64,000 nt of DNA from Methylomarinovum caldicuralii (GTDB lineage: Bacteria > Pseudomonadota > Gammaproteobacteria > Methylococcales > Methylothermaceae). The position numbers and the translations under genes are program-made. Shown piece after piece: positions 23,831-53,354 of this stretch. The notes beneath the pieces were generated by a model. The model saw nothing but the letters and a program-made list of their open reading frames with translations. It did not search any database and had not been told where the DNA came from. The stretch is from positions 2,062,990 to 2,126,989 of the forward strand of contig NZ_AP024714.1 in the NCBI RefSeq assembly GCF_033126985.1, read 5' to 3'. Position 1 is the first letter of the stretch. Every line of letters begins with the position of its first letter.

Positions 23831-25186
23831 ATGCTCGCCCGTTTCAGCCTCAAGACCCGGATCAACCTCGTCATCGCTGCCATCCTGCTGGTCATCACCC
23901 TCATCGGCAGTGGCCTGGTCATCCGCCACGTGCGCGAGTCGGTGGCCGGGGAAACCCGTTCGGCCCTGCAGCTGGCCCGGGAGATGGTGGAAGCCAGCCA
24001 CCTGCAGGGACCCCTGCCGGACGAACAGGCCGCCGCCTGGCGGGCAATGCTGGAACGCCTGGGGCAGTTGCGTCACGTCCGCCTGTTCATACTTCGGGAC
24101 GGCACACCCCTGCCCCCGTCCCCCTCCCGGCCGCCCCCTGACGTGCCGGTCTGGTTCGCCCGCCTGGTGGAGCCGCCGCCGGCCATCCTGGAACAGGCCA
24201 TCCCCACCCGACAGGGCGGGGTGCTGCGGGTGCGGCTGGTGGCCGATCCCGCCGACGAAATCGCCGAAGCCTGGGAGGAGACCCAATTGTTCCTCGGCCT
24301 GATCCTGTTCCTGGCCGGCGGCTGTTTCCTCGCGGTGTACCAGGTGCTGGGACGCGCCTTCCAACCGGTGGAGGCAGTGCTGACCGGGCTGGTGGCCCTG
24401 GAGCGGGAAGCCTACGACCACCGCCTGCCGGACTTCCCCCAGCCGGAGTGGAACCGCATCGCCCGGGCCTTCAACCACTGCGCCGAGGTGCTTCAGCAGA
24501 CCCGCCACGACAACCGCAGCCTGACCCGGCAACTGCTGAAGGTGGAGGAGGAAGAGCGCCGGGCCCTGGCGCGGGAGCTGCACGACGAGCTGGGGCAAAC
24601 CCTGAGCGGCATCAAGATGCTGGCCCAATCGATCCGGAACAACCCCCAGGCCGAGGCGGCCGAGCGCGCCGCCGGGCTGATCGCCGCGCAGGTCGATCAC
24701 CTGTTCGCCCTCCTGCGCGCCATGATCCACCGCCTGCGCCCCCTGATGCTCGACGACCTGGGGCTGTGCGCCGCCCTCGACGCCCTGACCGACGGCTGGC
24801 GGCAAAAACACGCCGGCATTGCCATCGACCTGCGCTGCGATCCCGCCGTGGAGCGGCTGGCGGCGGAACACCAGATCCACGTTTACCGCATCGTCCAAGA
24901 GGCCCTCACCAACGCCTTCAGGCACGCCCGTCCCCGGCAAATCGCCATCCGCCTGGAACCCCGTCAGGACTGGCTTCGGATCGAGATCCGCGACGACGGC
25001 GCCGGCGCCGAACCGTCCCGGCTGCAGCAGCGGGGATATGGCCTTCGGGGCATGCGCGAACGGGCGGAAAGCTTAGGAGGCCGTTTTCAGGTGACCACCG
25101 CGCCGGGAGCGGGATTTACGTTGACGATTCTGCTGCCTTTCGAGGAGGAGGAGGCCCATGACCATCCGTGTCATGCTGGCGGATGA
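23831..25186 (+). CDS. NarX/DegS-type sensor histidine kinase (copy 1)
   Basis: 451 residues from the ATG at 23831, matched to the start of its paralogue. One membrane helix lies at about 10-32, a periplasmic domain of roughly 110 residues follows, then a second helix (about 151-175) and a HAMP-like linker. The HisKA_3 box is EEEERRALARELHDELGQTL, with the phospho-acceptor His in RELHDELGQ, and the ATPase N-box is IVQEALTNAFRHA; the G-boxes DDGAGA and GYGLRGMRERA follow. It overlaps its response regulator by 29 bp. A close paralogue of the pair lies beside mxaF (51168-53148). Next to an aldehyde dehydrogenase gene, it may sense an alcohol, aldehyde or related signal. The ligand is unknown. 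Confidence 0.88.
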   Translation: MLARFSLKTRINLVIAAILLVITLIGSGLVIRHVRESVAGETRSALQLAREMVEASHLQGPLPDEQAAAWRAMLERLGQLRHVRLFILRDGTPLPPSPSRPPPDVPVWFARLVEPPPAILEQAIPTRQGGVLRVRLVADPADEIAEAWEETQLFLGLILFLAGGCFLAVYQVLGRAFQPVEAVLTGLVALEREAYDHRLPDFPQPEWNRIARAFNHCAEVLQQTRHDNRSLTRQLLKVEEEERRALARELHDELGQTLSGIKMLAQSIRNNPQAEAAERAAGLIAAQVDHLFALLRAMIHRLRPLMLDDLGLCAALDALTDGWRQKHAGIAIDLRCDPAVERLAAEHQIHVYRIVQEALTNAFRHARPRQIAIRLEPRQDWLRIEIRDDGAGAEPSRLQQRGYGLRGMRERAESLGGRFQVTTAPGAGFTLTILLPFEEEEAHDHPCHAGG

Positions 25187-25799
25187 CCACGCCGTGGTCC
25201 GCGCCGGCCACCGGTTTCTGCTGGATCAGAGCGACGACATCCACATCATCGCCGAGGCCGAGGACAGCGACGGCGCCTACCGGGGCTATTTCGCCCACCG
25301 CCCCGACGTGCTGGTGCTCGATCTGTCCCTGCCGGGCGCCGGCGGGCTGACCGTCATCCGCCGTATCTGCAGCCGCGATCCCGAGGCCAAGATTTTGGTG
25401 TTCACCATGCACGAGGAAGCCCTTTACGCCAAACGGGCCCTGGAAGCCGGCGCCAAGGGCTACATCGCCAAGAACGCCGATCCCGACATCCTGCCGGCGG
25501 CGATCCGCCGCATCGCCAGGGGGCAGATTTACGTGCTCGACGCCATCGCCGACCAACTGGAGAACCGCAATCTGGGCAACGGCGACCCCGGCAGTCCGCT
25601 TGCCCGCCTCACCCAGCGGGAATTCGAGATCTTCTGCCTTGCCGCCCAGGGACTGTCGGTACCGGAGATCGCCGCCCGGCTGTACATCAGCCACAAAACC
25701 GCCGCCAATCACATGACCCAGATCAAACGCAAGCTCGGGGTCGCCACCCTCGGCGAACTGGTGCGCCTGGCCTATCGGCACAACCTCGCCACCGATTGA
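25158..25799 (+). CDS. LuxR/NarL-type response regulator (copy 1)
   Basis: 213 residues. The receiver domain has the acidic pair Asp9-Asp10, phospho-acceptor Asp55 in VLVLDLSLPG, and Lys in KGYIAKN. The C-terminal LuxR HTH (LTQREFEIFCLAAQGLSVPE onward) ends with a typical recognition helix KTAANHMTQIKRKL. It overlaps the kinase gene by 29 bp, the same overlap seen in copy 2, so the pair was duplicated as a unit. It lies 71 bp upstream of the aldehyde dehydrogenase gene. Confidence 0.9.
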   Translation: MTIRVMLADDHAVVRAGHRFLLDQSDDIHIIAEAEDSDGAYRGYFAHRPDVLVLDLSLPGAGGLTVIRRICSRDPEAKILVFTMHEEALYAKRALEAGAKGYIAKNADPDILPAAIRRIARGQIYVLDAIADQLENRNLGNGDPGSPLARLTQREFEIFCLAAQGLSVPEIAARLYISHKTAANHMTQIKRKLGVATLGELVRLAYRHNLATD

Positions 25800-28155: not shown

Positions 28156-28169
28156 CGAGGCTTTACGGA

Positions 28170-28658
28170 ACGGAACTCAAGGCGTTTTTCCGCAGGATGC
28201 GGAACTGGCGCCAATCCCCCTGCCGCGGCGCCTTCATCTCGGCGGCGTAAGTCTCAAGCTCCTCCAGGGAGCGGAAGACAGGCTGGTCAGCACGTTGCTG
28301 CGCTGTCCCAGCCAGCCGGCACCGTCGACAGGTTCCATGGAGACGAAATAGCCCTGCTCACGGTAGTCGCAGGGCAGCAGGGCCTATCCCTTAAGCTGGC
28401 GCCAGATGTTCTTGGCCACGTGACGCCCCTTGCGGATCGCCACCTGGGCGCTCAGGACGTTGCTGCCTTCGCCGTCAAGGAAAAATCCACCCGACAACAG
28501 GTCTCCGGGCGGCGGATACGCTCGTGCAGCCGAGTACGGATGACATGATGGGAACGGGCATCGAGCAGGGTGAGATCGGCCTCGGGAAGCCGCTCCCGCA
28601 AGGTCACCAACGCCGCAAGACCGGCGAAACCGCCGCCGATCACCGCGATCCTGGCCAT
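28170..28658 (-). pseudogene. Decayed FAD/NADH dehydrogenase (NDH-2-like) gene
   Basis: From an ATG at 28656-28658 the minus strand reads MARIAVIGGGFAGLAALVTL, a dinucleotide-binding N-terminus of the type II NADH dehydrogenase family, up to about residue 50. Another frame then gives LSAQVAIRKGRHVAKNIWRQ, the conserved C-terminal FAD-contact region of the same family, directly followed by a stop, and further fragments (CDYREQGYFVSMEP, RSLEELETYAAEM) lie in shifted frames. The centre of the protein is deleted and the end is frameshifted. It is divergent from the light-response remnants at 28793. Confidence 0.6.
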
Positions 28659-28709
28659 CGAAACGCACCGTTACGGGTCGAGGAAAAGACTGTCATCGTT
28701 GTTACAGGT

Positions 28710-28768
28710 TGTACAAAATCGGAGGGGTTATTGTACACCTGCCTTTGAGAATGTAAAATTCCTGTACA
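28710..28768 (+). promoter_or_regulatory. Promoter with three TGTACA operator-like sites
   Basis: TGTACA occurs at 28710-28715, 28732-28737 and 28763-28768, spaced 22 and 31 bp, close to two and three helical turns. A promoter overlaps them: TTGTAC (28731-28736), 17 bp, TAAAAT (28754-28759). LitR/CarH-type light-responsive MerR regulators bind T(G/A)TACA-type half-sites, and a LitR-like gene is at 38248. The site lies between the divergent NDH-2 remnant and the FAD/CFA chimera. Confidence 0.6.
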
Positions 28769-28792
28769 AAAAACGATTAAAGGCGGGCTTTC

Positions 28793-29329
28793 ATGACGAA
28801 GACAGGCCCAATCGCGGTGATCGGCGGTGGTGTTGCCGGCTTGGTCAGCGCCTGGCTGCTGGCAGAGCGCTACCCGGTCACCCTGTTCGAGCGCAACGAC
28901 TACCCCGGAGGACACACCTGCACCGTGGAGGTGCCCGGTCCAGGAGGATCGCTGGCGGTGGATACCGGTTTCATCGTCTACAACGTCCCCAATTATCCGC
29001 GCCTGACCCGGCTGTTCGCGCATTTGGGAATCGAATTCCTGCGGCTTTGGGAGTATTATCTGGCCTACTGTTACGCCGGTTTTGTCACCGGCAAGGTGGA
29101 TGTCAACGCTTTCGTCCTGACCTGCCCTTGGACCAGCGGATGTCACTGCCACAACTGCTCGCTTACGGGCTGCCGGGGCTGCCTTTGGCCGTATTGGGGC
29201 TGCCGCTGTACGTTTACCTCGCCACCTTCTACGCCCGCGACCTGCTGCTGGGAACCGGGACCGTGGGCGCAATCCTGCTTGTGGCGCGGCTGTTCGACGT
29301 GGTCACCGACCCCCTGGCGGGTTATGTGA
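28793..29329 (+). pseudogene. Deletion chimera: FAD oxidoreductase head joined to cyclopropane-fatty-acid-synthase-like tail
   Basis: Residues 1 to about 81 (MTKTGPIAVIGGGVAGLVSA, then ERNDYPGGHTCTVEV and VDTGFIVYNVPNYPRLTRLF) are the N-terminus of the amine-oxidase-like FAD protein found in light/singlet-oxygen operons. From residue 82 the sequence changes to LRLWEYYLAYCYAGF, the C-terminal signature of CFA-synthase-like SAM methyltransferases. The middle of the usual operon (rest of the FAD protein, DUF1365 and the methyltransferase body) appears deleted. After about residue 116 the frame runs out of phase into the MFS gene. The product is unlikely to work. Confidence 0.65.
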
Positions 29330-30455
29330 GCGACCACTGGCCCCGGCAGGACTGGCGCCGCCGCGGACCCATGGTGCTGGGCATGCCCTGGCTGCTGCTC
29401 GGCATCTGGATGCTGTTTCTTCCCCCGCCCGGGATCGGCGGCGGCTGGCTGCTGCTGGGGACGCTGCTGGCCTATCTGGGCTGGACCCTGGTCAGCATTC
29501 CCTATGCCGCCTGGGGCGCGGAGCTGAGCGACGACTACCACGAACGCAGCCGGCTGGCGGCCAGCCGGGAGGGCTTTCAGGCCCTCGGCGTGCTGCTGGC
29601 CCTGGTCCTGCCAACTTGGGCCGGCATCGCCGAGAACGCGGGCGCCAGCCTGCGGCTGCTGTTCTTCGCGGTGCTGCTGACCCTGGTGCCCACGGTCCTT
29701 CTCGCCGTCCGCCTGCTGCCGGAGTCGGTGCAGCTTTTCGGGGGCCGGCTTTCATGGCCGGACTGCGTCTCCTTGGCGCCAACCGCCCCCTAAGGCTGCT
29801 GCTGATCGCCTACCTGGCCAACGGCCTGCCGGCAACGCTGTTTCTGCTGTTCGTGGGGGAACGCCTGCAGAACCCCGAGGCCACAGGGCCGCTGCTGATC
29901 CTGTATTTCGGGGCCGGGGTGGCGGCGCTGCCGGCCTGGCTTTGGCTGTCGCGCCGGATCGGCAAGCACCGGGCCTGGGCGGTGTCGATGGGGCTGGCGG
30001 CCCTGTCCTTCGTGCCCGTGCCCTGGCTTGGGCCGGAAGATTTCTGGATCTTCACCGTCACCGTCGCCCTCACCGGTCTGACCCTGGGAGCCGACATGAC
30101 CCTGCCGACAGCGATGCAGGCCGACGTGGTGGACGTGGACACCGCCGGGGGCGGCGGCGGCCGGGCCGGGCTGCTGTTCGGCATCTGGGGGATGGCGACC
30201 AAGCTCGCCCTGGCTCTGGCGGTGGGGATCGCCTTCCCGCTGCTGGGGCTGGCCGGCTACGACCCCACCTTGCAGGCCCAGCCCCACGCCGCCCTCACCG
30301 GCCTGGGTTTCCTCTATGCCGGATTGCCGGTGCTGCTCAAACTCCCCTGCATCCTTATCGCCTGGCGCTTTCCCCTGGACGCCGCCGCCCAAGCCCGGCT
30401 CCAGACACAGATTCACCGACAATACGATCGCGGAGGTGCCGATGAAACCCCTTAA
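29140..30455 (+). pseudogene. Frameshifted MFS (GPH/MelB-like) transporter
   Basis: Two overlapping frames together make one 12-helix transporter of about 438 residues. The first runs from an ATG at 29140 (MSLPQLLAYGLPGLPLAVLG, then SDHWPRQDWRRRGPM) to a TAA at 29791-29793. The second continues from about 29740 (AGLRLLGANRPLRLLLIAYL) to 30455. The switch falls around a run of five G at 29738-29742 and corresponds to loss of one base. The transporter is the usual partner of FAD/CFA/DUF3833 genes in light-responsive operons. It could be a sequencing or assembly indel, phase variation, or true decay. Confidence 0.7.
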
Positions 30456-30495
30456 GCTGACCCTGTTTCTGCTGCTGGCGCTTCTGGCAACGTAG
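30442..30495 (+). pseudogene. DUF3833-like lipoprotein stub (signal peptide only)
   Basis: An ATG at 30442 with GGAGG upstream starts MKPLKLTLFLLLALLAT and then meets TAG at 30493-30495. Position directly after the MFS gene and the signal sequence fit the DUF3833 lipoprotein that normally follows; the mature protein is missing. Confidence 0.45.
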
Positions 30496-30576
30496 TGCAT
30501 TGGAATTCCTTGGAGCATTCCGGCGGATGCAGCGGGGACTGGTATGATGATCGAACCGGATTCAAGAGGAAAAACC

Positions 30577-31059
30577 ATGTTGGAAAATCCCGAAAACTGG
30601 CTGACGCTGGGCGTCGCCGCGCTTGGTCTGGTCTTCGCCGGGTTGTTGGCCCTGGCCCGGCTGGCCTCCGCCTCGCCCGATCTGGCACCGGCGGACGGCA
30701 AGCTACCGCCCTGCCCCAGCTCCCCCAACTGCGTCTCCAGCCAGGCCGATCCGAGGGACGAGACCCACTACTTGCCGCCGCTGCGCTTTCAGGGGGATCC
30801 AGGGGCCGCGTGGCAACGTCTGGAGGCGATCGTGGCGCGCCAGCCGCGGGTGACGGTCCGCAGCCGCCGGCCCGGCTATCTCCACGCCGAGTTCCGCTCC
30901 AAGATTTTCGGCTTTGTGGATGACGTCCAGTTCCTGCCCGACCCCGAGCGGCGGCTGATCCACTTCCGCTCGGCATCGCGCGCCGGCTACAGCGACCTGG
31001 GAGTCAACCGCAGGCGGATCGCGGCCATCCGCGCCGCGTTCCAGGAGGCTGCCCCGTGA
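30577..31059 (+). CDS. DUF1499-family protein
   Basis: 160 residues from the ATG at 30577 with AAGAGGAA upstream. One membrane helix (about 9-29) is followed by the DUF1499 core: PCPSSPNCVSSQ, then HYLPPL, and FGFVDDVQFLPDPERRLIHF. DUF1499 proteins are membrane-associated and of unknown function; they occur in stress and light-related loci. The stop overlaps the BLUF gene start by 4 bp, so the two are coupled. Confidence 0.85.
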   Translation: MLENPENWLTLGVAALGLVFAGLLALARLASASPDLAPADGKLPPCPSSPNCVSSQADPRDETHYLPPLRFQGDPGAAWQRLEAIVARQPRVTVRSRRPGYLHAEFRSKIFGFVDDVQFLPDPERRLIHFRSASRAGYSDLGVNRRRIAAIRAAFQEAAP

Positions 31060-31580
31060 TCCGCCTCAGCTACATCAGCCAGGCGGCGCGGGCGTTCGGC
31101 GACGAGGAACTGGACGCCATGCTGGAAAAATTCCGCGCCAACAACCGCGCCCGCGACATCAGCGGGGTGCTCTACCAAGGCAACGGCATGTTCATGCAGG
31201 TGCTCGAGGGCCCCAAGGAGGCCGTGGAGGAGACCTTCCGCCGGATCCGCAAGGACCCGCGCCACCACGACGTGCACCTGATCGAGAAGACCCCGATCGA
31301 AAAACGCCGCTTCGGTGATTTCGGCATGGCCTTCAACCGCCTCAGGGACGAGGATTTCCGCACCCTGGCACAGGAAATGGGCGCCTCCGAGAAAATTCTG
31401 AAGCGCCAGCAGACCCTCATCGAGGGAATGTCGCATAAACTGAAGGAGGAGGCCGACAGGCGCGCCAGCCACATGGAGCTTCCCCTGCACCACGAGGACC
31501 GCCTGATCCGCTCGCTGCACCACGTGATCCACGTGGCAGTCAAGGGGCTGGCGGTGCTGATGACCATGGTGATCGTCTGA
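31056..31580 (+). CDS. BLUF blue-light sensor domain, first half of an interrupted BLUF-PsiE protein
   Basis: Starts with GTG at 31056, overlapping the DUF1499 stop. Residues 1-95 form a BLUF flavin photosensor. The three key residues sit at Tyr6 (LSYIS), Asn30 (RANNR) and Gln48 (MFMQVLEG), with the same mutual spacing as Tyr21/Asn45/Gln63 of AppA. An amphipathic linker follows, then VIHVAVKGLAVLMTMVIV, a membrane helix cut by TGA at 31578-31580. Reading through the TGA, the frame continues directly into the PsiE-like frame at 31593. The light-sensing part looks functional; the membrane output is broken unless the stop is read through. Confidence 0.85.
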   Translation: MIRLSYISQAARAFGDEELDAMLEKFRANNRARDISGVLYQGNGMFMQVLEGPKEAVEETFRRIRKDPRHHDVHLIEKTPIEKRRFGDFGMAFNRLRDEDFRTLAQEMGASEKILKRQQTLIEGMSHKLKEEADRRASHMELPLHHEDRLIRSLHHVIHVAVKGLAVLMTMVIV

Positions 31581-31592
31581 GGGGTCTTCGAC

Positions 31593-31931
31593 GTGGTGTG
31601 GGTGCTGTACCAGAGATTCCTGACGCCGCCGCTGGGCCTGCTCGAGGTCGGCGACATCATCGCCGTGTTCGGTGCCTTCATCGCCGTGCTCATCGCCATC
31701 GAGATCTTCATCAACATCACCCTTTATCTGCGCAGCGATGTGATGCCGGTGCGGCTGGTAGTGGCCACCGCCCTCATGGCCATTGCCCGCAAGGTCATCA
31801 TCCTCGATTTCAAGAAGCTCGACTGGCCCTATGTGGCCGCCACCGGCGTGGTGGTGCTCGCCCTGGGGGTGACCTACTGGCTGCTGCACCGGATGGAAAC
31901 CGGTGTGGGGAAGGAGGAATGGAAGAAATAA
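31593..31931 (+). CDS. PsiE-like membrane domain, second half of the interrupted BLUF-PsiE protein
   Basis: 112 residues if started at GTG 31593, in the same frame as the BLUF gene and four codons after its TGA. Three hydrophobic segments, with MPVRLVVATALMAIARKVII and DFKKLDWPYVAATGVVVLAL between them, match the phosphate-starvation-inducible PsiE family. There is no ribosome-binding site before the GTG, so independent translation is doubtful. The natural product would be one 291-residue BLUF-PsiE protein in which the TGA replaces an expected residue such as Trp. Its last codons overlap the LOV gene start. Confidence 0.75.
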   Translation: MVWVLYQRFLTPPLGLLEVGDIIAVFGAFIAVLIAIEIFINITLYLRSDVMPVRLVVATALMAIARKVIILDFKKLDWPYVAATGVVVLALGVTYWLLHRMETGVGKEEWKK

Positions 31932-32326
31932 CCACCACCCTGCTGCGGCAAGCCCTGGATTCGACCCGGGACGGACTGACCATCGCAGAGGTCCGAGACA
32001 ACGACCATCCCCTCATCTATGTCAACTCGGCCTTCGAGCGGCTTACCGGCTACAGCCGCCTTGAAGTCCTCGGCAGGGACTGCCGCTTCCTACAGGGGCC
32101 TGAAACCGACCGCCGAACCGTTGATCTTCTCAAGGCCGCCTTGATCGAAGGCAGGCCCGCCTGCGTCATCCTGCTCAATTACCGCAAGGACGGAAGTGCC
32201 TTTTGGAATGAGCTGTCGGTTGCCCCGATTCGCGGCGCAGCTTTGGGCGGGTTTCGCTGCCATCCTCAACCTTCAAATCTGGCTGCTGAATCGATAGGCC
32301 GCACCGACCCCTGCCCCTGGATATAG
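31919..32326 (+). CDS. Short LOV-domain blue-light sensor (C-terminally altered)
   Basis: 135 residues from the ATG at 31919; AAGGAGGA lies five bases before it. The LOV signature GRDCRFLQGPETD contains the adduct-forming Cys55, preceded by YVNSAFERLTGYSRLEVLG and followed by FWNELSVAPIRGA. The domain stops there: the last beta strand (normally reading like HFIGVQ and the DIT motif) is replaced by ALGGFRCHPQPSN and an unrelated tail, consistent with a deletion or frameshift near 32235. Flavin binding may persist but signalling is doubtful. Short LOV proteins partner with class II LitR regulators in pseudomonads; a LitR-like gene is 6 kb away. Confidence 0.8.
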   Translation: MEEITTTLLRQALDSTRDGLTIAEVRDNDHPLIYVNSAFERLTGYSRLEVLGRDCRFLQGPETDRRTVDLLKAALIEGRPACVILLNYRKDGSAFWNELSVAPIRGAALGGFRCHPQPSNLAAESIGRTDPCPWI

Positions 32327-32332
32327 ATTAGT

Positions 32333-32372
32333 TATACAAAATTCTTGACAGCGCCCAAGCATAATGTACAAT
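32333..32372 (+). promoter_or_regulatory. Promoter of the sigma factor gene with TGTACA-like sites
   Basis: TTGACA (32345-32350) and TACAAT (32367-32372) are 16 bp apart. TATACA (32333-32338) and TGTACA (32365-32370) flank and overlap the promoter, 32 bp apart (about three turns), and fit the T(G/A)TACA pattern also present at 28710-28768. The -10 overlaps the second site, as expected for repression. Confidence 0.55.
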
Positions 32373-32402
32373 TAAAGTCCAATTTTTCTTGGGCGTCTGT
32401 GC

Positions 32403-33308
32403 ATGTATCGAAACACTTCCGGCGACAGCCAGGTTCTGACGGACGAAGAGACGCCGGCATCCCGATGGGACGGCCACGGCAGGCGGCGGATCTCCATTCT
32501 GGAGGACTATCTCGACCGGATCGGCCGGTTTCCCCTCCTGAGCCCGAGACAGGAGCAAGAACTGGGACGCCGCATTCAACGCTGCACCCGCCGCCTCGAG
32601 GCGCGCCGGGGCGATACCGAAGACAGGCGGCAGTCCGGCGCCCGGGGTGATCCCGGAACGCCAAAAAGCGATGCAGAAATTGTACATATATCCGAGGGAT
32701 TGCAGCAGGCCATCTGCAAGCTGGTGGAACACAACCTGCGTCTGGTTGTCCGGGAAGCCTGTCGCTACCGGCGCCAGCGCGATTCCCTGCTGCTCGATCT
32801 GATTCAGGAAGGCAACCTCGGCCTGTTGCGCGCCGCCCGCAAATTTGACCCCGGGCGCGGCGGGCGTTTCTCCACGTATGCCGTCCATTGGATCCGCCTG
32901 TTCATCGACCGCGCCGCCCACCGCATCAGCACCCCCCTGACCATGTCGCTGGACGAGGCCGGAAGAAGGCGCCGTGAAGGGCGGACGATCCCCAGCCTGT
33001 CACTCGACGATCCCAGGGCTCCTGAGAATTTGGGCGAATTGCTGCGTACCGACGACACGGCGCTGTGGGCCGATCTCGACCGGGCCCGGCTGGCCGCCCT
33101 GATTGAGCAGGGGCTGGACACCCTGAACCGGCGGGAGGCGGAAATCCTGAAGCTGCGCTTCGGCCTCAAGGACGAGCAAATCAGAACCCTGCAGCACATC
33201 GCCGACCGCCTGGGGGTCAGCCGCGAACGGGTCCGCCAAATCGAGAAGGCCGCACTCGAAAAGCTGCGGCGCAAGTTCCACAACCAGTGGCAATCCCTTT
33301 TGCCCTGA
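32403..33308 (+). CDS. Sigma-70 family (group 2/3) RNA polymerase sigma factor
   Basis: 301 residues. Region 1.2 is ILEDYLDRIGRFPLLSPRQE; regions 2.1-2.4 run from LVEHNLRLVVREACRYRRQR through LIQEGNLGLLRAARKFDPGR to FSTYAVHWIRLFIDRAA; region 4 ends ADRLGVSRERVRQIEKAALE. Region 3 is short. It is smaller than RpoD or RpoS and resembles the alternative primary-like sigmas of light and stress circuits. TGTACA-like sites overlap its promoter, so it may be light-controlled. Another TGTACA occurs inside the gene at 32681-32686. Confidence 0.88.
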   Translation: MYRNTSGDSQVLTDEETPASRWDGHGRRRISILEDYLDRIGRFPLLSPRQEQELGRRIQRCTRRLEARRGDTEDRRQSGARGDPGTPKSDAEIVHISEGLQQAICKLVEHNLRLVVREACRYRRQRDSLLLDLIQEGNLGLLRAARKFDPGRGGRFSTYAVHWIRLFIDRAAHRISTPLTMSLDEAGRRRREGRTIPSLSLDDPRAPENLGELLRTDDTALWADLDRARLAALIEQGLDTLNRREAEILKLRFGLKDEQIRTLQHIADRLGVSRERVRQIEKAALEKLRRKFHNQWQSLLP

Positions 33309-33338
33309 ACCCGCCAGAGGAGAACAAAGGAGGTCATC

Positions 33339-34484
33339 ATGCTAGGCAACAAAAACCCGGGACAGCCGGAAAAAAACAAACCCGGACCTTACTTCGATTA
33401 CAAACAGTGGTGGGCGACCATCGGGTCCGAGTGGTTCGAACGCCAGGCGGTGCGTTTGCGCCATATCAGACTCGACCGGGCGCTGAAGTACGGCGCCGCC
33501 ACTGCCCTCTGTGCCTGGCTGGCCACGGGTTTTTACATCGTCAACGCCGGAGAGCGCGGCGTAGTCACCCGGTTTCTCGCCTACCGAGAAACCGCCGAGC
33601 CTGGTCCCCACTGGCACTGGCCGGCACCGATCGAGCAGGTGCACAAGATCAACGTCGAACGCCAGCGTTTTCTGGAAGTCGGCTACCGTAGCGGCAGCGG
33701 CCGGCAGGTTCCCGTTCCCAGCGAGGCCAGAATGCTGACAGGTGACGAAAACATCGTCGATCTCCACCTGGCGGTGCAGTACCGGATCGAAAACCCGGCC
33801 GATTACCTGTTCAACATCCAGGCACCCGAAGACATCCTGAAGCAACTCACCGAAAGCGTCACCCGCAGCGTGGTGGGGCAGCAAAACATGGATTATGTGC
33901 TAACCGAAGGGCGCAGCGAGATCGTCGCCCGCATCGAGAAGGAACTGCAGCGGATTCTCGACGAGCATCGGTCCGGCATCCGCATCGCCGGCGTCAACCT
34001 TCAGGATGTCCAGCCGCCCGAGGAGGTACAACAGGCCTTCGAGGATGCGATCAAGGCCCGTGAGGACCGCGAACGCCTCATCAACGAGGCCCAGGCTTAT
34101 GCCAACGAGATCGTTCCCAAGGCGCGCGGTGAAGCCGCCCGGTTGATCGCCGAAGCCGAGGCGCACCTGCAAACCGTGACCGCGAGGGCCAAGGGTGAGG
34201 CCGACCGATTCCGCCGTGTTCTGGCTGAATACCGCAAACATCCGGACATTACCCGCCGCCGCCTGGCCATTGAAACCATGGAGGAAATCCTGACCCGCAC
34301 CGATTCGGTGGTGGTGGATCTCGAGGGCAGCGGCAACGTGGTCTATCTGCCGCTCAATCCTGGCCAGTCCGGACCGATCCGCGGCAACGAGCCGGCAACC
34401 GCCGGGGCAAAACCGCAAGCATCCACTGCCGAACGCCCCATCCGCAACACCCTGCGCCGTGGCCGTTCAATCAGAGGAGAATGA
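33339..34484 (+). CDS. hflK: HflK-like SPFH protein
   Basis: 381 residues. A membrane helix at about 50-67 precedes the SPFH/prohibitin domain (VNAGERGVVTRFLAYRETAE onward, DENIVDLHLAVQYRIENPAD) and a long Ala/Glu-rich helix. HflK and HflC form a periplasmic cage that regulates the FtsH protease. AAAGGAGG lies seven bases before the start. Unlike classical HflK the N-terminus is not Gly/Pro-rich, and the gene is not beside hflX or hfq, so this is probably a second, specialised set. It overlaps the hflC region. Confidence 0.88.
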   Translation: MLGNKNPGQPEKNKPGPYFDYKQWWATIGSEWFERQAVRLRHIRLDRALKYGAATALCAWLATGFYIVNAGERGVVTRFLAYRETAEPGPHWHWPAPIEQVHKINVERQRFLEVGYRSGSGRQVPVPSEARMLTGDENIVDLHLAVQYRIENPADYLFNIQAPEDILKQLTESVTRSVVGQQNMDYVLTEGRSEIVARIEKELQRILDEHRSGIRIAGVNLQDVQPPEEVQQAFEDAIKAREDRERLINEAQAYANEIVPKARGEAARLIAEAEAHLQTVTARAKGEADRFRRVLAEYRKHPDITRRRLAIETMEEILTRTDSVVVDLEGSGNVVYLPLNPGQSGPIRGNEPATAGAKPQASTAERPIRNTLRRGRSIRGE

Positions 34485-34486
34485 TC

Positions 34487-35350
34487 ATGAAAACCAATCT
34501 CATCATTTCTTCCGTCTCCGCGCTCTTATTGTTCGCTTCCCTCTGGCTGGCGGTCTTCGCCGTCCCGCAGAATCACGAAGCGATCCGGTTCCGCCTGGGG
34601 CGGATCGTGGCGGCCGATTATGACCCTGGCCTCCATTTCAAGCTGCCGCTGCTGGAATCGGTCAAGCGCTTCGACCGGCGCATCGTCAGTCTGGACCTAC
34701 CCCCGGAGCGCTTCCTGACTGCGGAGAAGAAGAACGTCATCGTCGATGCCCTGGCCCTGTGGCGCATCGACGACGTGGTGCGCTTCTACACCTCGGTCCA
34801 GGGTGACCGCCAGTCGGCCAATCTGCGCCTGGGGCAGATTCTCAAGGATGTCATGCGCGGTCAGTTCGGCCGCCGCCAGATCCGGGAACTGGTGGCCGAG
34901 GACCGGACCAGGCTGCGCGACCTCCTGCTGGCCGAGGCCCAGGAAGCTGCGACCGACCTGGGAATCCGGCTGGTGGATTTGCGGATCAAGCGCATTGATC
35001 TGCCCGAGGAAGTCAGCGCCTCGGTTTTCCGGCGTATGGAAGCGGAACGCTCCCGGGTCGCCAAGGAACTGCGCTCCCAAGGCGCCGAGGCGGCGGAAAG
35101 GATCCGCGCCGATGCCGACAAGCAGCGGCAGATCCTGCTCGCCGAGGCCTACCGCCAATCCCAGCGCCTCAAGGGCATCGGTGATGCCCGTGCCACCGAA
35201 ATCTATGCCACGGCCTATGCCGAAGATCCCAAGTTTTTTGCTTTCCTCCGCCGTCATCAAGCCTACCGCAGGGGGCTGGTTCAGCCCGGCGACAAGCTGG
35301 TGTTGAAACCGGATGCCCCGTTCTTTCGTGATTTCGCCAAGGATGAGTGA
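34487..35350 (+). CDS. hflC: HflC-like SPFH protein
   Basis: 287 residues from the second ATG (34487), seven bases after GAGGAG; an upstream ATG at 34481 overlaps the hflK stop. One N-terminal membrane helix (about 5-24) is followed by the SPFH domain with RFRLGRIVAADYDPGLHFKL, typical of HflC, and a helical Ala/Arg/Glu region. It partners HflK and FtsH in membrane protein quality control. Confidence 0.9.
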   Translation: MKTNLIISSVSALLLFASLWLAVFAVPQNHEAIRFRLGRIVAADYDPGLHFKLPLLESVKRFDRRIVSLDLPPERFLTAEKKNVIVDALALWRIDDVVRFYTSVQGDRQSANLRLGQILKDVMRGQFGRRQIRELVAEDRTRLRDLLLAEAQEAATDLGIRLVDLRIKRIDLPEEVSASVFRRMEAERSRVAKELRSQGAEAAERIRADADKQRQILLAEAYRQSQRLKGIGDARATEIYATAYAEDPKFFAFLRRHQAYRRGLVQPGDKLVLKPDAPFFRDFAKDE

Positions 35351-35372
35351 AGATGTCCTGTCTCTGAACTTT

Positions 35373-35397
35373 GGCGGCAGGGACGCCGTCTTTTTTT
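35373..35397 (+). terminator. Rho-independent terminator after hflC
   Basis: GGCGGC and GCCGTC arms (one G-T pair) enclose AGGGAC and are followed by seven T (35391-35397). It divides hflKC from the two unknown membrane genes and ftsH, possibly as a partial terminator. Confidence 0.6.
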
Positions 35398-35408
35398 AAG
35401 GGGAAAAC

Positions 35409-35816
35409 ATGCAAAATCTGATTCGATTCAATTTTTATCTGGCCGTGTTGGTTTCCGTGGTCGGCGGCATTGCCGTCCTGTTCAAACCTTCACTGGTATT
35501 TCCGCAACTGTTACAGAGCTATGGTCCGTTAGCCCGCAATCTTCTGCTGATCGTCTTTTACCTTGTCGTCATCCAGCTGATAATGTGGGCTTTTCGCTAT
35601 CGCCACAGCGGCTATCTGGAGGCGCTTTTCATGGGCTGTCTGATGCTCATGGCGGCGGTGGGCATTCCCTTCTACTCAGAAATCAACGGCCTGCCCCGGA
35701 GTCCTGTCCTGGTGGGCGCCCTGACCTACTGCGGGATTTCCCACCTTATTTATTTCATCTATGCCTACCTGTACTGCCGCGACCCGGAGGCAGATTCCAA
35801 CTGTAAGGAGGTGTGA
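35409..35816 (+). CDS. Four-helix membrane protein, unknown
   Basis: 135 residues with hydrophobic segments at about 10-28, 43-61, 71-89 and 98-116 and a short cysteine-containing cytoplasmic tail (YCRDPEADSNCKEV). No family recognised. It starts 9 bp after the hflC terminator T-tract with AAGGGGAAA as a ribosome-binding site, and its stop overlaps the next gene region. Its position between hflC and ftsH suggests a membrane substrate or modulator of the FtsH-HflKC complex. Confidence 0.65.
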   Translation: MQNLIRFNFYLAVLVSVVGGIAVLFKPSLVFPQLLQSYGPLARNLLLIVFYLVVIQLIMWAFRYRHSGYLEALFMGCLMLMAAVGIPFYSEINGLPRSPVLVGALTYCGISHLIYFIYAYLYCRDPEADSNCKEV

Positions 35817-35818
35817 CC

Positions 35819-36274
35819 ATGATGACCAAGAAAATCACCTGGCGCGACTGGTTGCCGGACTGGAAAAGTCTTGGCAAGATCGTTTTCTATGTGGCCCTGC
35901 TTTATGTGCTGCAGGTGTTCGTGATTCTCCCCTTTATGACCTATGTGATCGATTCCGATTTCTTAAGTCCCCGAGGAGCTTTCGAACCGGTCAGCGGCGA
36001 CGCGAAGCAGGGGGCTCAACTGCAGTGCAGTAACTATTTCCGCCAGGAGATGACCACTGAAAGGGTTGAGTTTCCGCTTGGTGGAACCAAAGTTTGGGGC
36101 ATGGGGGACGGACGCTTCCTGGTCAAGGCCAGAGCCATCGTCACCGACGATGCCGAACTGGCCCACAAGATTAATTATGCCTGCTATGTGAAGTTCGAAG
36201 GCGGGGATGCCTTCGAGGCCGGGAACTGGACCCTCAGGGGCCTGGACTGGCGCGATGCCAATACAACTGAATGA
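35819..36274 (+). CDS. Single-span membrane-anchored protein, unknown
   Basis: 151 residues from the ATG at 35819, seven bases after AAGGAGG. One membrane helix at about 19-44 is followed by a soluble domain of about 100 residues with two Cys (LQCSNYF and NYACYVKFEG). No family recognised. It lies 13 bp upstream of ftsH and 2 bp after the four-helix protein, so all three are probably co-transcribed. Confidence 0.65.
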   Translation: MMTKKITWRDWLPDWKSLGKIVFYVALLYVLQVFVILPFMTYVIDSDFLSPRGAFEPVSGDAKQGAQLQCSNYFRQEMTTERVEFPLGGTKVWGMGDGRFLVKARAIVTDDAELAHKINYACYVKFEGGDAFEAGNWTLRGLDWRDANTTE

Positions 36275-36286
36275 TAAGGTGCCAAG

Positions 36287-38221
36287 ATGCATAGTTTCCT
36301 GAAAAACATACTCCTGTGGGTGGTGATCGCCGCGGTGTTGATGTCGGTGTTCAACAACTTCGGTGCCCGCAAGCCTGCGGGTGCGCAGTTGTCGTACACC
36401 CAGTTCATCGAAGCGGTCCACAATGGCCAGGTCAAAGAGGTGGTCATCGAAGGGAAAGCCGTCAAGGGCATCACCAGCGCAGGACAGAAATTCATCACCT
36501 ACAACCCCAACGACCCGCATCTGATCGACGATCTTTTGGAAAACAAGGTCGAGATCAAAGCCGAACCGCCGGAAGGCCAGTCGCTGCTGATGCAGATCTT
36601 CATTTCCTGGTTCCCGATGCTGCTGCTGATCGGGGTGTGGATCTTTTTCATGCGCCAGATGCAGGGTGGCGGCAGTGCCGGCCGCGGGGCGATGAACTTC
36701 GGCAAGAGCAAGGCGCGGCTGATGGAGGAAGACAAGATCAAGGTCACCTTCAGGGACGTGGCCGGCTGTGACGAAGCCATCGAAGAAGTCCAGGAAGTGG
36801 TCGACTTCCTCAAGGACCCGAGCAAGTTCCAGAAGCTCGGCGGCCGCATCCCCAAGGGCATCCTGATGGTCGGCCCGCCCGGGACCGGCAAGACCCTGAT
36901 CGCCCGCGCGATTGCCGGCGAGGCCAAGGTGCCGTTCTTCACCATCTCCGGCTCCGACTTTGTGGAAATGTTCGTCGGGGTCGGGGCTTCCAGGGTGCGC
37001 GACATGTTCGAGCAGGCCAAGAAGCACGCCCCCTGCATCGTCTTCATCGACGAGATCGACGCCGTCGGCCGTCACCGCGGTGCCGGACTGGGCGGCGGCC
37101 ACGACGAGCGCGAACAGACCCTCAACCAGCTGCTGGTGGAGATGGACGGTTTCGAAGGCAACGAAGGCATCATCATCATCGCCGCCACCAACCGTCCCGA
37201 CGTTCTCGACCCGGCGCTTTTGCGTCCCGGCCGCTTCGACCGCCAGGTCACCGTCGGCCTGCCCGACATCCGCGGCCGCGAGCAGATCCTCAAGGTGCAC
37301 CTGCGCAAGGTGCCCACCGCCGACGACGTCGACCCCAAGGTCATCGCCCGCGGCACCCCCGGCTTCTCCGGGGCGGATCTTGCCAACCTGGTCAACGAGG
37401 CCTCGCTGTTTGCCGCCCGCGCCAACAAGAAGCTGGTGGACATGAGCGACCTGGAAAAGGCCAAGGACAAGATCCTCATGGGGGTCGAACGCCGATCCAT
37501 GGTGATGAGCGACGAAGAAAAGCGCATGACCGCCTACCATGAAGCCGGTCACGCCATCGTCGGCCTCAACGTCCCCGAGCACGACCCGGTCTACAAGGTC
37601 AGCATCATGCCTCGGGGGCGGGCTTTGGGGATCACCATGTTCCTGCCCGAGCGGGACCAGTACTCGGCCTCCAGGCGCAAGCTCGAGAGCCAGATCTCCA
37701 GCCTGTTCGGCGGCCGCATCGCCGAAGCCCTGATCTTCGGCAGTGAGGCCATCACCACCGGCGCCTCCAACGACATCGAGCGGGCCACCGACATCGCCCG
37801 CAACATGGTCACCAAATGGGGGCTGTCGGAAAAGCTCGGGCCTCTGGCCTATGCCGAGGACGAAGGCGAAGTGTTCCTGGGCCGCTCGGTGACCCAGCAC
37901 AAGAGCATGTCCGAGGCCACCGCCCGGGAGATCGACGAGGAGATCCGCGCCATCATCGACCGTAACTACGAGCGTGCCGAGCGCATCCTCAAGGAGAATA
38001 TGGACAAGCTCCACCTGATGGCCGAGGCCCTGGTCAAGTACGAAACCATCGACCGCGACCAGATCGATGCCATCATGCGGGGCGAAACCCCGCCGCCCCC
38101 CAAGGACTGGGAGGACAATCCGCCGGCTGCTAAGGGCAAGGCACGCGAGCGTGACGGCGGTAAACTGGCGTCCGGAGCACCAAACCCGACCCCCAGTCCG
38201 GCGGCACGTTCGTACCGATGA
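36287..38221 (+). CDS. ftsH: ATP-dependent zinc metalloprotease FtsH
   Basis: 644 residues. Two N-terminal membrane helices (about 5-22 and 100-121) flank a periplasmic domain; the AAA+ module has Walker A GPPGTGKT (about 193-200), Walker [12 protein letters not shown] and the second region of homology [20 protein letters not shown]; the zinc motif is HEAGH (about 418-422). It degrades membrane and short-lived cytoplasmic proteins. The housekeeping copy usually follows rlmE, not hflC, so this may be a second copy devoted to stress. The C-terminal tail is Pro/Ala-rich. Confidence 0.95.
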
Positions 38222-38247
38222 TTCGGTCAGGAAACTTAAGGTCCAAC

Positions 38248-39144
38248 ATGGACGAACAAAAACAGGAAACCGCGCTGTATCCGATCCGTGAGGTGTCCGA
38301 GCGTACCGGCGTCAACCCAGTCACCCTGCGGGCCTGGGAGCGGCGCTACGGGCTGGTCAAACCCCAGCGCACCGCCAAAGGTCACCGGCTGTATTCGGAA
38401 CAGGACATCGAGTTGATCCAAAAGGTCGTGGCCCTGCTGGAAACCGGAATCCCCATCAGCCGGGTGCGCCAGGTGCTCGAGCGGCCGGCGTCGGCCCCTG
38501 CCGCCCCACAGGCAGAGGAGGATTGGGAACGCCACAGGGAAATCCTCACCGAGGCGGCGTTGTCCCTGAATCCCGGGCGGCTGGATGCGGTCTATCGAGA
38601 GGTGAGCAGCCTGTACCCGGCCTCCGTGCTGGTGCGCCAGGTACTGCGGCCGGCCCTGGAACGACTGGCGCGCCTGGAAGGCCGCGATCCCCTCGCCCGC
38701 CATGCGGCCTCACTGCTGCGTTGTCAACTCTGGGTCCAAGCCGGCCACCATATCTGGCAGCAATCGCTGCGCAACCAGGGACCGCGTCTGCTCTATAGCG
38801 CCCTGCCCGGCGACGGCGAGGATCCCGAAGCGCTCTTCCTGGCATTATTGCTCGTCGAGAACCATCACCGCCTGGTCTGGCTTCCTGACCCCACGCCACT
38901 GCGATATCTGGGAGAAAGCGCCGCCGCGGCCAAGGCGGATGCCATACTACTGTTCGCTGCCGCCACCCCCGGCCAGCCCCTCCTCAACCGGGAACTGCCG
39001 GCCCTGGTGGCGGCCACCGAAGTCCCGGTGGGGGTAGCCGGCCCGGCGGCGGTGCGGCACCAGGCGGCGTTCCGGCAGACCGGCGCCCAGCCACTGCCGC
39101 TGGAGGAAGAACGCCTGCTCCAGGCGCTGAAGGCGCTGGCATGA
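38248..39144 (+). CDS. MerR-family regulator, LitR-like without cobalamin motif
   Basis: 298 residues from the ATG at 38248. The MerR HTH covers about 10-77 (YPIREVSERTGVNPVTLRAW, then RYGLVKPQRTAKGHRLYSEQ). The C-terminal 220 residues have the helical plus Rossmann-like layout of CarH/LitR, but I see no DxHxxG cobalamin motif, so it resembles class II LitR proteins, which sense light through a partner LOV protein. It overlaps the YbgA-like gene by 4 bp, an arrangement known from litR-ybgA-phr loci; no photolyase gene is present here. Likely ligand of the TGTACA sites at 28.7 and 32.3 kb. Confidence 0.8.
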   Translation: MDEQKQETALYPIREVSERTGVNPVTLRAWERRYGLVKPQRTAKGHRLYSEQDIELIQKVVALLETGIPISRVRQVLERPASAPAAPQAEEDWERHREILTEAALSLNPGRLDAVYREVSSLYPASVLVRQVLRPALERLARLEGRDPLARHAASLLRCQLWVQAGHHIWQQSLRNQGPRLLYSALPGDGEDPEALFLALLLVENHHRLVWLPDPTPLRYLGESAAAAKADAILLFAAATPGQPLLNRELPALVAATEVPVGVAGPAAVRHQAAFRQTGAQPLPLEEERLLQALKALA

Positions 39145-40100
39145 GCGACACGTGCGAAAATCAACGCCCGGTCGTCATCGCCAGTGCCTGCCTGCTCGGG
39201 CAGGCGGTACGCTATGACGGCGGCCACAAGCGCGACCGTTATCTGGACATTCTGGCCGAACACCTGGTAATCCGCGCCATCTGCCCTGAGGTGGGGGCGG
39301 GCCTGGGTACGCCACGGCCAGCCATGCACCTGGTCGAGGATGATGGGGAAATCCGACTGCGGGAACGCCGCGACCCGGAGCGTGATCATACCGAGGCGTT
39401 GGAACGCTTCGCCCGCAGCCAGATTCCGCTGCTGGCCCAGGCCGACGGCTTCATCGCCAAGAGCAAATCCCCCAGCTGCGGCATGGCGAGAATTCCGGTG
39501 AAAGACCCTCAGGGGAACTTCCGCCACCACGGCAGCGGCCTGTTCACCCACAGGGTACGCCGCCATCTTCCCTGCCTGCCGGTGGAGGAGGAAGGCCGCC
39601 TGCGCGACCCGGTGCTGCGGGAAAATTTCCTCCAGCGGGTCTTCGTCCACCGGCGCTGGCGCCAGCTTTGCGCCGAAGGACTCACTCCCGCCGGGCTCAT
39701 CGACTTTCACACCCGCCACAAGTACATGGTGATGGCCCACAGCGTGGCCGCCTACCGCCGTCTTGGCCGCCTGCTGGCCCAGGCCGGGAACCTGCCCCTA
39801 AACACCCTGGGGGATGACTATTTCACCGAAATGATGGCCGCCCTCTCCCGACCGGCGCGGCGAGGCAATCACGTCAACGTCCTTCAGCACCTGGCAGGTT
39901 ACTTAAGCCGCCACCTGAGCGCCGCCGACCGCCGGGAATTGGCCGAGGCCATCGAAAGTTACCGCCGCGGCGAGGTCCCCCTGGTGGTGCCCCTTACCTT
40001 GTTGCGCCACCACCAGCAGCGCATCCAGGAACCCTATCTGGCACGCCAGTACTACCTGGCGCCCTATCCCGCCGCCCTGGGGCTGCGCAACGCCATCTAG
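39141..40100 (+). CDS. YbgA-like protein (DUF523 plus DUF1722)
   Basis: 319 residues. The N-terminal DUF523 part has SACLLGQAVRYDGGHKRD, AICPEVGAGLGTPRP and FIAKSKSPSCG; the C-terminal DUF1722 part has FHTRHKYMVMAHS, YLSRHL and VPLTLLRHHQQR. In E. coli ybgA lies upstream of the photolyase gene phr. Function is unresolved but association with photolyase and light regulators is widespread. It is coupled to the MerR gene. Confidence 0.88.
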   Translation: MSDTCENQRPVVIASACLLGQAVRYDGGHKRDRYLDILAEHLVIRAICPEVGAGLGTPRPAMHLVEDDGEIRLRERRDPERDHTEALERFARSQIPLLAQADGFIAKSKSPSCGMARIPVKDPQGNFRHHGSGLFTHRVRRHLPCLPVEEEGRLRDPVLRENFLQRVFVHRRWRQLCAEGLTPAGLIDFHTRHKYMVMAHSVAAYRRLGRLLAQAGNLPLNTLGDDYFTEMMAALSRPARRGNHVNVLQHLAGYLSRHLSAADRRELAEAIESYRRGEVPLVVPLTLLRHHQQRIQEPYLARQYYLAPYPAALGLRNAI

Positions 40101-40102
40101 GA

Positions 40103-40417
40103 TCAGTCTTTCCGGCGCCTTTCCATGCGCTCACGCCAGCGTTCCATGCGCCTGCGCCGCATCTCCTGGAATTTGTCCCACTGCTCGGCCGTCAGCACTT
40201 CTTTGAGACGGCGACGGGTTTCCTCGTGGATGGCGCGGATCTTCTCTCGCTGTTCCCGCAGAATCTCGCGCACCTTGGGCCGCTGCTCCGGGGTCAGCTG
40301 CAGGCGATCCTCCAGGCTCTCGAGGCGTTTCTCCACAGGCGGCAGGCCGGCGGGAGGACGGGCCAGGGCGGCGGTGCAGGCCAGCAGCGAGACGGTCAGC
40401 AGGATCTTGGTTTTCAT
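40103..40417 (-). CDS. Spy/CpxP-like small periplasmic protein
   Basis: 104 residues with a signal peptide (MKTKILLTVSLLACTAALA, about 1-19). The mature chain is a highly charged helix with two LTxxQ-type motifs, LTPEQR and LTAEQW, as in Spy, CpxP and ZraP periplasmic chaperones and metal sensors. An almost identical N-terminus survives as a broken copy at 53355-53457. Convergent with the YbgA-like gene. Confidence 0.8.
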   Translation of the reverse strand: MKTKILLTVSLLACTAALARPPAGLPPVEKRLESLEDRLQLTPEQRPKVREILREQREKIRAIHEETRRRLKEVLTAEQWDKFQEMRRRRMERWRERMERRRKD

Positions 40418-40501
40418 CGGGTTTTCTCCTTGTCACAGAACGCAACATTCAGCCGCCTCCATTCTACCAAACTGACGCCGGAAACGCCAGATGCCTGCGG
40501 C
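40318..40501 (-). repeat. Direct repeat copy 1 flanking the mxa block
   Basis: This segment (start of the Spy-like gene plus its upstream 85 bp) matches two separated pieces at 53360-53480 and 54681-54729 in the same orientation. The piece 40453-40501 differs from 54681-54729 at about four positions in 48. Just upstream of the Spy-like ATG it retains a trace of the end of the nitroreductase-methyltransferase gene (TGCGTTCTG). Confidence 0.7.
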
Positions 40502-49143: not shown

Positions 49144-50946
49144 TCAGGTTTCGTCCGGAAGGGCGAACACCATCACGCCACCGCCCATCTTGGTGTATTT
49201 GGCCAGTTCCTTGAAGGCGCCCACAGCACCCAGCCCGGCCGAAGGGTCCTTAAGATCGAACACCAGACCAACCCCGGGCCAGCCACCGACGCCATAGTAG
49301 ATGGCAAGGTACTGCTTGCCGTTGTGCTCATAGGTGATGGGATGGCCAATGACACCGGAAGGCAGCTTGAACTTCCATTTCAACTTGCCGTCGCGGCTGT
49401 CGAGGGCCTTGATCCAGCCGTCCAATGTGCCATAGAAGACCAGGTTGCCCTGAGTGGCCAGGGTGCCGCCCCAGACCGAGAACTTCTCCGGTACCGACCA
49501 CTTGAATCGGCCGTTTTTGACATCGTAGGCACGCACGAAGCCCATCACCCCTTTGGGTCCGGGATACATGTTGAGGGTGGCGCCGACGAAGAACTGTCCT
49601 GCCCGGTAGGGCAGCATGAACGGCTCCCAGTCCATGCAGATGTGGTTGAGACCAAAGAAGAACAAGTGTTTTTCGGGATCGTAGGCATCCACCCCCTGGT
49701 TGTGGTAACCCATGGCCGAAGGGCAGATGTTCTTGGCCTGATGGTCCATGCGGGTTCCGTATTCGGGATCGCGCACCGGCTGGCCGGTCTTCAGATCCAC
49801 GTACTTGACCCAGTTGACTGTGTCGTCCAGCTTGTCGGCCCGCACCAGTTCCCCGGTTTCCCGGTTAAGGGTATAGACGATGCCGTTACGATCCGGGTGG
49901 GTCACCAGCTTCACCTTCTTGCCGTCGATGACCTGCTCGGACAACGCCATGTAGTTGACCCCGGCGTAGTCCCATTCGTCGTGGGGGGTCTTCTGGTAGC
50001 CGTAGATGGCCATGCCGTCATCCGGGTCGCGGGCCCACATGGTCATGGTCCACTTGTTGTCGCCCGGGCGCATGGTCTCGTTCCAGGGCGCCGGGTTGCC
50101 GGAACCGTAGTAAATCAAATCGAGATCCGGATCGTAGGCGTACCAGCCCCAGTTGGTACCGCCGCCGATCTTCCAGGCGTCCCCTTCCCAGGTCTTGAGA
50201 CCGAGACCAAAGCGGCCGTATTGTGGCGTTTTCTCGTTGAACTTGTCTGACAGGCGAATATCCTTGTCGGGACCGGTGGCGAACGCCCGCCATTCCATCT
50301 TGCCATCGTTGATGTTGAAAGCGGTCACGTAACCACGCACCCCCAGTTCGGCGCCGGAGCAGCCCACCAATACCTTGTCCTTGACCACGAAGGGGGCCTG
50401 GGTAATGGTGGCGCCGACGCGAATGTCGCACGCCTCCATCTTCCAGATGGGTTCACCGGTCTTGGCGTTCAGGGCCACCAGGTGGCCGTCCAATTGACCG
50501 AGGAAAATCTTGGCCGGCTTGCCCTTCTCCGCCGGGGCGTAGGCCACGCCTCGGTTGACCACGTCACAACAGGCCACCGCGCGGGCGGCCGGATTCTGCT
50601 TGGGTTTGTATTCCCAGACGATCTTGCTGGGGTCGTCCAGATCCAGGGCGTAGACCGTGTTGGGGAACGGGGTGTTGATGTACATGAGGCCATCGACAAC
50701 CAATGGCCCCCCTTCGTGGCCGTGGAGGACACCGGTGGAAAAGCTCCAGGCCACCTGAAGGTTCTTGACGTTGGCGGTATTGATCTGAGCCAGTCTGGAG
50801 TAGTGGGTCGCGCTGTAATCCTTGGTGGGCATCACCCAGTTGGTGTCCTTCCTGGACAGTTCGATCAACTTCTGGTTGGCCTGGGCCACGGTGGCGCTGC
50901 CTGCCAGCATCGCCGTCAGCACCAGGGACAGGGTTTTGTATCGCAT
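49144..50946 (-). CDS. mxaF: Calcium-dependent methanol dehydrogenase large subunit MxaF
   Basis: 600 residues, PQQ beta-propeller enzyme of the periplasm. A signal peptide ends AQAN (about residue 24). The disulfide CC is at 126-127, and [10 protein letters not shown] (about 322-331) has catalytic Asp326 and Ala328, where XoxF enzymes carry the lanthanide-binding Asp. The C-terminus ([20 protein letters not shown]) is typical MxaF. GAGGAG lies seven bases before the start. It is the first gene of the operon and divergent from a two-component system. Confidence 0.97.
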
Positions 50947-52535: not shown

Positions 52536-53148
52536 CCATCCGGTAGTCCGCGCCGGCCACCGGTTTCTGCTGGAACAGAGCGACGACATCTGTATCGTTG
52601 CCGAGGCCGAGGACAGCGACCGCACCTATCACAGCTACTTCGACCATCGCCCCGACGTGCTGGTGCTGGACCTGTCCATGCCTGGCGCCGGGGGTCTGAC
52701 GGTGCTGCGCCGCATCGTCAACCACGATCCGGAGGCCAATATTCTGGTCTATACCATGCATGAAGAAACCCTGTACGCCAGACGCGCCCTGGAAGCAGGA
52801 GCCAAGGGCTACATCAGCAAGAGCACCGAGCCGGAAATCCTACCCGAAGCGATCCGCACCATCGCCCGCAGGGAACACTACATTGCCGCCACCATCGCTC
52901 AGCAACTGGCCTGGCAGTACGCCAACGGTGAGGAGCAGGAAGGCACTCTGACCTGCCTGACCAACCGCGAATTCGAAATTTTCTGTCTTGCTGCCAAAGG
53001 ACTGTCGGTGAGGGAAATCTCCGACCACCTGTACATCAGCCACAAGACCGCCGCCAATCACATGACCCAGATCAAGCGCAAGCTCGAAGTCAGCACTATG
53101 GGAGAACTGGTGCGCCTGGCCTATATGCAAGATCTGGCCAGCAAGTAA
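52507..53148 (+). CDS. LuxR/NarL-type response regulator (copy 2), candidate mxa regulator
   Basis: 213 residues, the same length as copy 1, overlapping its kinase by 29 bp as in copy 1. Asp9-Asp10, phospho-acceptor Asp55 (VLVLDLSMPG) and Lys in KGYISKS are intact; the LuxR HTH is LTNREFEIFCLAAKGLSVRE to KTAANHMTQIKRKL. MxaB of other methylotrophs is a response regulator of the same kind, but I assign the name only tentatively. The recognition helices of the two copies are identical, so they may share target sites. Confidence 0.9.
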   Translation: MTIRVMLADDHPVVRAGHRFLLEQSDDICIVAEAEDSDRTYHSYFDHRPDVLVLDLSMPGAGGLTVLRRIVNHDPEANILVYTMHEETLYARRALEAGAKGYISKSTEPEILPEAIRTIARREHYIAATIAQQLAWQYANGEEQEGTLTCLTNREFEIFCLAAKGLSVREISDHLYISHKTAANHMTQIKRKLEVSTMGELVRLAYMQDLASK

Positions 53149-53181: not shown

Positions 53182-53354
53182 CTATCGGAAATTCATGTCA
53201 ACCTCATCAGCCTATCCCCCTGCTGGAGACAGTACCTTCCGCCGGGACCCAACAGTTATGCCACCCCAACCCAAGTGCGTGCCGCGTACCCACCGGTCAC
53301 GGAGGCTGCATGAATTTTGTGCAAAACAGTCTCCAGACATTCGGGGGTTTTGCA

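Follow-up and report, generated by a model that had tools for sequence, protein, structure and literature searches.

The window analyzed here is a 64,000-nucleotide stretch of the Methylomarinovum caldicuralii IT-9 genome. On its forward strand lies an intact DUF1499 gene (30544-31059; Pfam E 6.7e-40), followed by a gene that joins a BLUF domain to a PsiE membrane domain and is interrupted by a premature in-frame TGA at 31578-31580. The 5' half of this gene (31056-31580) encodes 174 amino acids in one open frame, running from a GTG start at 31056 through the BLUF domain, a linker and the first ~16 residues of the first transmembrane helix (TM1) to the TGA. The start is preceded by AGGAGG at 31043-31048, 7 bases ahead of the GTG, and overlaps the end of the DUF1499 gene by 4 nt (GTGA), the stop codon of DUF1499 being a TGA as well. 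The 3' half (31581-31931, forward strand) carries the remainder of PsiE in the same frame (Pfam E 4.3e-33), which stays open up to the TAA at 31929-31931. The TGA is the sole lesion across the 292 codons of the BLUF-PsiE frame.

When the frame is read through, the BLUF domain (PF04940) occupies residues 1-91 (E 1e-29), and PsiE (PF06146) occupies residues 161-281 (E 3e-36), spanning the TGA. The BLUF half alone contains the full domain, profile positions 1-91 of 92 (E 1.3e-30); the part after the stop matched PsiE from profile position 17 onward. As encoded, the first ~16 PsiE profile positions are cut off by the TGA, and the profile is complete only in the read-through frame. The flavin-pocket residues Y6, N30, Q48 and M91 are present with the spacing found in AppA, and are invariant in the alignment with 21 relatives; we take their AppA equivalents to be Y21, N45, Q63 and M106. 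For helix assignment only, we used an AlphaFold2 prediction of the read-through sequence, built on an alignment of 22 sequences (mean pLDDT 71, pTM 0.40). It placed residue 175, i.e., the stop position, within a long helix spanning 149-189; three more helices come after it, at 198-226, 232-249 and 257-281, the region 149-281 being helical overall. The best 50 matches listed in a fold search were all BLUF structures, and none was for PsiE. Solved short BLUF proteins include 1x0p, 2hfn and 6w6z, whereas no solved chain was a convincing match for the PsiE part.

It should be noted that the original prediction placed the TGA within a hydrophobic helix, as the AlphaFold2 model also does, and described a gapless continuation into a PsiE-like domain, which is upheld by the frame being open to the TAA and by the PsiE match after the stop (E 4e-33). 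The prediction also regarded the next downstream GTG as weak and as devoid of a ribosome-binding site; the former description stands, as we find a possible weak reinitiation site (31579-31595, forward strand) that overlaps the TGA, and the latter is slightly off, because GAGGGG at 31579-31584 precedes the GTG at 31593-31595 by 8 nt.

Intact relatives and the codon at the stop

The homologue scan covered 84,980 species genomes and the genomes of the genus. BLUF-PsiE fusions without interruption were found in Methylococcales, Nitrospirales (Nitrospirota), Nitrospinota and Nitrotoga, among them those of Methylohalobius SKW56 (70% identity) and genome G001 (61%). The fusion is uninterrupted in all 21 aligned relatives; among 121 Methylococcales genomes there are 19 full-length copies, and the eight of these that were read from end to end are all open. 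Five full-length Methylococcales hits flagged for internal stops (in G112, G043, G110, G109 and G061) were considered as carriers of similar interruptions, and their frames proved open to the ends. A TGA at this site was absent from all relatives examined (the 21 aligned sequences and the eight Methylococcales copies). Thus the frame is whole in relatives and disrupted in IT-9; since the relatives are uninterrupted, this family is normally fused, and only IT-9 has the stop.

At the site of the TGA, eight of the 21 intact homologues have TGG (Trp), and the others have Leu or Phe codons. The original prediction considered the codon to fit an ancestral TGG and proposed a search for intact homologues and for the residue at this site; the nearest relative and seven others indeed carry TGG, and the fusion was recovered in 21 of 21 relatives. 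Separate BLUF and PsiE genes with their own starts, which would have spoken against the prediction, were not seen in the 21 aligned relatives and the eight Methylococcales copies, all of which are fused.

Comparison of IT-9 with its nearest relatives showed that the third codon position differs most, upstream and downstream of the TGA alike; for the larger part of their history, both halves were therefore constrained at the level of the protein. Lost invariant residues were also considered as a signal of decay. Only two otherwise-invariant residues are changed in IT-9, compared to 0-3 in intact homologues, with no clear excess; because these altered residues fall within the range of the intact homologues, no decay can be seen apart from the stop. 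Together, the codon-position pattern and the small number of altered invariant residues indicate that the gene still encoded protein during most of the time since it separated from its relatives. Judging from these substitution patterns, the TGA is probably recent in origin.

Broken genes in the surrounding 11-kb segment

Comparison with intact homologues revealed at least four further broken genes in the 11-kb segment that holds BLUF-PsiE. An NDH-2-like pseudogene on the reverse strand (28279-28652) has lost ~230 internal codons and contains an in-frame stop, as judged by tblastn with the intact homologues of genomes G001 and G003. On the forward strand, there is a deletion fusion (28793-29140), in which an amine-oxidase N-terminus is joined at about 29033 to what is left of a CFA-type synthase, its final ~30 codons, DUF1365 being missing, and an MFS transporter pseudogene (29128-30455) with a frameshift near 29740, whose two frames match one intact gene of G001/G003. 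Downstream of BLUF-PsiE, a truncated LOV/PAS gene (31919-32324, forward strand; Pfam PAS_9 E 9.5e-17) is followed by a tspO remnant, i.e., the final 17 codons, out of frame, at 32241-32291. The truncated LOV gene has the photo-cysteine motif GRDCRFLQG and a strong SD, and overlaps the end of the BLUF-PsiE frame.

The neighbors that are still open are DUF1499, the sigma factor, HflK/C, FtsH and MerR; the hflK/hflC/ftsH-type genes and the sigma factor lie in the segment beside light genes. All three of the following were identified with Pfam on the forward strand: a sigma-70-type factor (32403-33308), intact and with a relative in G003; an intact MerR-type regulator (38218-39144; MerR_1 E 2.3e-19), with the same neighbor in G001 and G003; and a RudS-type gene (39141-40100) with a 2-thiouracil desulfurase domain and DUF1722. 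The MerR-type regulator may be called LitR-like by context only, and a search of it for B12-binding_2 gave no match at E 0.01. The segment has two promoter regions, and half-sites of the TGTAYA type are concentrated in both: a TGTACA cluster at 28709-28769, and two TGTAYA half-sites at 32333-32372, which flank and overlap a near-consensus sigma-70 promoter-like site (TTGACA-16-TACAAT) before the sigma gene. Their spacing is not N12. Similar half-sites occur upstream of the photolyase in genome L092.

In the sister species, M. tepidoasis IN45, the segment (28165-39141) is absent: positions 28164 and 39142 abut, and 10,977 bases are missing. IT-9 comes from 23 m depth and IN45 from the deep sea, and the two have an average nucleotide identity of 92.94% (PMC10950024). 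The MerR-RudS pair is retained in G001 and G003. It is simpler to assume that IN45 lost the segment, because G001 and SKW56 keep the MerR-RudS neighborhood found at the right-hand end of the segment in IT-9, and from this gene order loss is the likelier direction. BLUF is present in 3 of the 10 genomes of the genus; photolyase in the genus is limited to the two genomes with intact BLUF-PsiE, and none was found in the genome of IT-9 or IN45. Within the genus, the light regulon can be followed from an intact form (G001 and SKW56) through a broken one in the shallow-water IT-9 to its absence from the deep-sea IN45.

Elsewhere in the window, short repeats (40304-40501, 53352-53486 and 54681-54729; 85-92% identical) are also found in IN45. 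Two pairs of stretches appear to represent duplicated genes: 23843-25791 and 51180-53140 (2 kb, 76% identical), and 1920-3053 and 49753-50886 (68% identical).

Fate of the interrupted gene

We consider it very likely that BLUF-PsiE of IT-9 is a recently inactivated gene, i.e., an ordinary pseudogene in a light-response cluster undergoing loss, because the surrounding 11-kb segment holds other broken genes. The intact ancestor would have been a blue-light sensor composed of an FAD-binding BLUF domain, a helical linker and a four-helix PsiE membrane domain, presumably produced within a light-response/photoprotection regulon alongside photolyase, RudS and the MerR-type regulator. One change in IT-9, most likely TGG > TGA, would halt translation in the middle of TM1, and the segment would be in the course of being lost in the genus, with IT-9 part-way and IN45 at the completed stage. 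Both this order of events and the present lack of function are what we infer for the IT-9 gene. The BLUF half, in which the start, the SD and the photoactive residues are all preserved, may nevertheless still be made or working.

A functional truncation, in which the 174-aa short BLUF protein signals and PsiE is lost or separately made via reinitiation at GTG 31593, is unlikely. Such a protein would have a complete domain with Y6, N30, Q48 and M91, a good SD, coupling to the intact DUF1499 gene, and a size comparable to that of PixD or BlsA, structures of short BLUF proteins (those listed above) being available; GAGGGG also lies ahead of the reinitiation codon. However, the product terminates in half a hydrophobic helix, the split form is found in no relative, the photolyase partner is missing, and the adjoining genes are broken. 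That the TGA is a selected switch, yielding a short BLUF protein plus a PsiE form that is separately initiated or made by low-level read-through, appears very unlikely; if true, it would uncouple light sensing from the membrane domain in IT-9.

Decoding of the TGA as Trp or selenocysteine, with production of the full-length receptor, is still harder to credit. The frame is open on either side of the TGA and Trp occupies this position in the nearest relatives, but the TGA is unique to the IT-9 copy, conservation of the stop in relatives, as expected for programmed read-through, is lacking, and the adjacent DUF1499 gene also stops at TGA. The genome search found no SelB over the cut-off; no tRNA-Sec candidate exceeded the cut-off either, the top-scoring one being a tRNA-Ser. 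There is no UCA-anticodon (suppressor) tRNA among the 46 tRNA places, tRNA-Trp having CCA, and the 63 bases from the TGA fold no better than shuffled sequences (z 0.14), so that SelB, tRNA-Sec and a hairpin after UGA, the hallmarks of a selenoprotein, are all missing. Equally remote is the possibility that the TGA stems from an error in sequencing or assembly, or from a mutation that became fixed solely in the laboratory culture: a single substitution would suffice, and the IT-9 culture has been maintained in the laboratory since isolation (PMC10950024), but the genome (AP024714; 2,694,844 bp) was determined at 870x coverage with MiSeq and PacBio data and corrected with Pilon (PMC10950024), which makes a sequencing error unlikely at the TGA, and the independent lesions in adjoining genes would require several separate errors. 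That IT-9 has a membrane photoreceptor still working in split or read-through form is not supported, given at least four broken neighbors, the absence of photolyase, and the lack of any sign of recoding.

Proposed role of the intact protein

In SKW56, a photolyase gene directly precedes BLUF-PsiE, and RudS and MerR genes adjoin; several other lineages have photolyase or RudS no more than 3 kb away from BLUF-PsiE. Among Methylococcales, photolyase is present in 16 of the 19 genomes with the fusion, compared to 57 of the 102 without it (Fisher p 0.022, a value that ignores relatedness). RudS genes, as defined in PMC11417400, are known in light-responsive operons (PMC11417400), and BluF, a BLUF protein of E. 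coli, acts as an antagonist of the MerR-type BluR (PMC3509220). The photolyase/RudS/MerR context, the half-sites and the BluF-BluR precedent suggest that intact BLUF-PsiE is most likely, by analogy, a sensor of blue light that is tethered to the membrane and belongs to a photoprotection regulon. Its output may proceed via the MerR regulator, an interaction that we put forward as a hypothesis, or via PsiE itself, both being candidates.

BLUF-PsiE resembles AppA, BlrP1/BluF (BLUF-EAL) and bPAC/OaPAC (BLUF-cyclase) in its layout, an N-terminal FAD-binding BLUF domain with the conserved Tyr, Asn, Gln and Met residues, then a helical linker and finally an effector; however, its effector is the PsiE membrane domain, and the IT-9 gene is interrupted. 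With E. coli PsiE (PF06146), it shares the membrane domain (E 3e-36) with four predicted helices, but PsiE is stand-alone in many bacteria, whereas here it stands behind BLUF and is tied to light genes; no link of BLUF-PsiE to phosphate was seen. The Pseudomonas class II LitR/short-LOV regulon (PMC9758184) is similar in its MerR-type regulator, photolyase, FAD oxidoreductase, fatty-acid synthase, LOV protein and TGTAYA half-sites; the IT-9 segment differs in containing BLUF-PsiE and in being largely broken. The PplR1/PmlR2 operators of class II LitR have the form T(G/A)TACA-N12-TGTA(C/T)A (PMC9758184), a spacing that the IT-9 half-sites lack. The E. coli BluF-BluR system (PMC3509220) likewise combines a BLUF gene and a MerR-type regulator in one light cluster, although the effector of BluF is a degenerate EAL domain, in place of PsiE.

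We found nothing relevant on BLUF combined with PsiE in the papers searched, and the intact family, often located beside photolyase/RudS genes, appears to be undescribed in this literature. The family spans methanotrophs and nitrite-oxidizer lineages, and outweighs the IT-9 stop itself in importance: it would give PsiE, a domain so far without an assigned function, a testable input, namely light.
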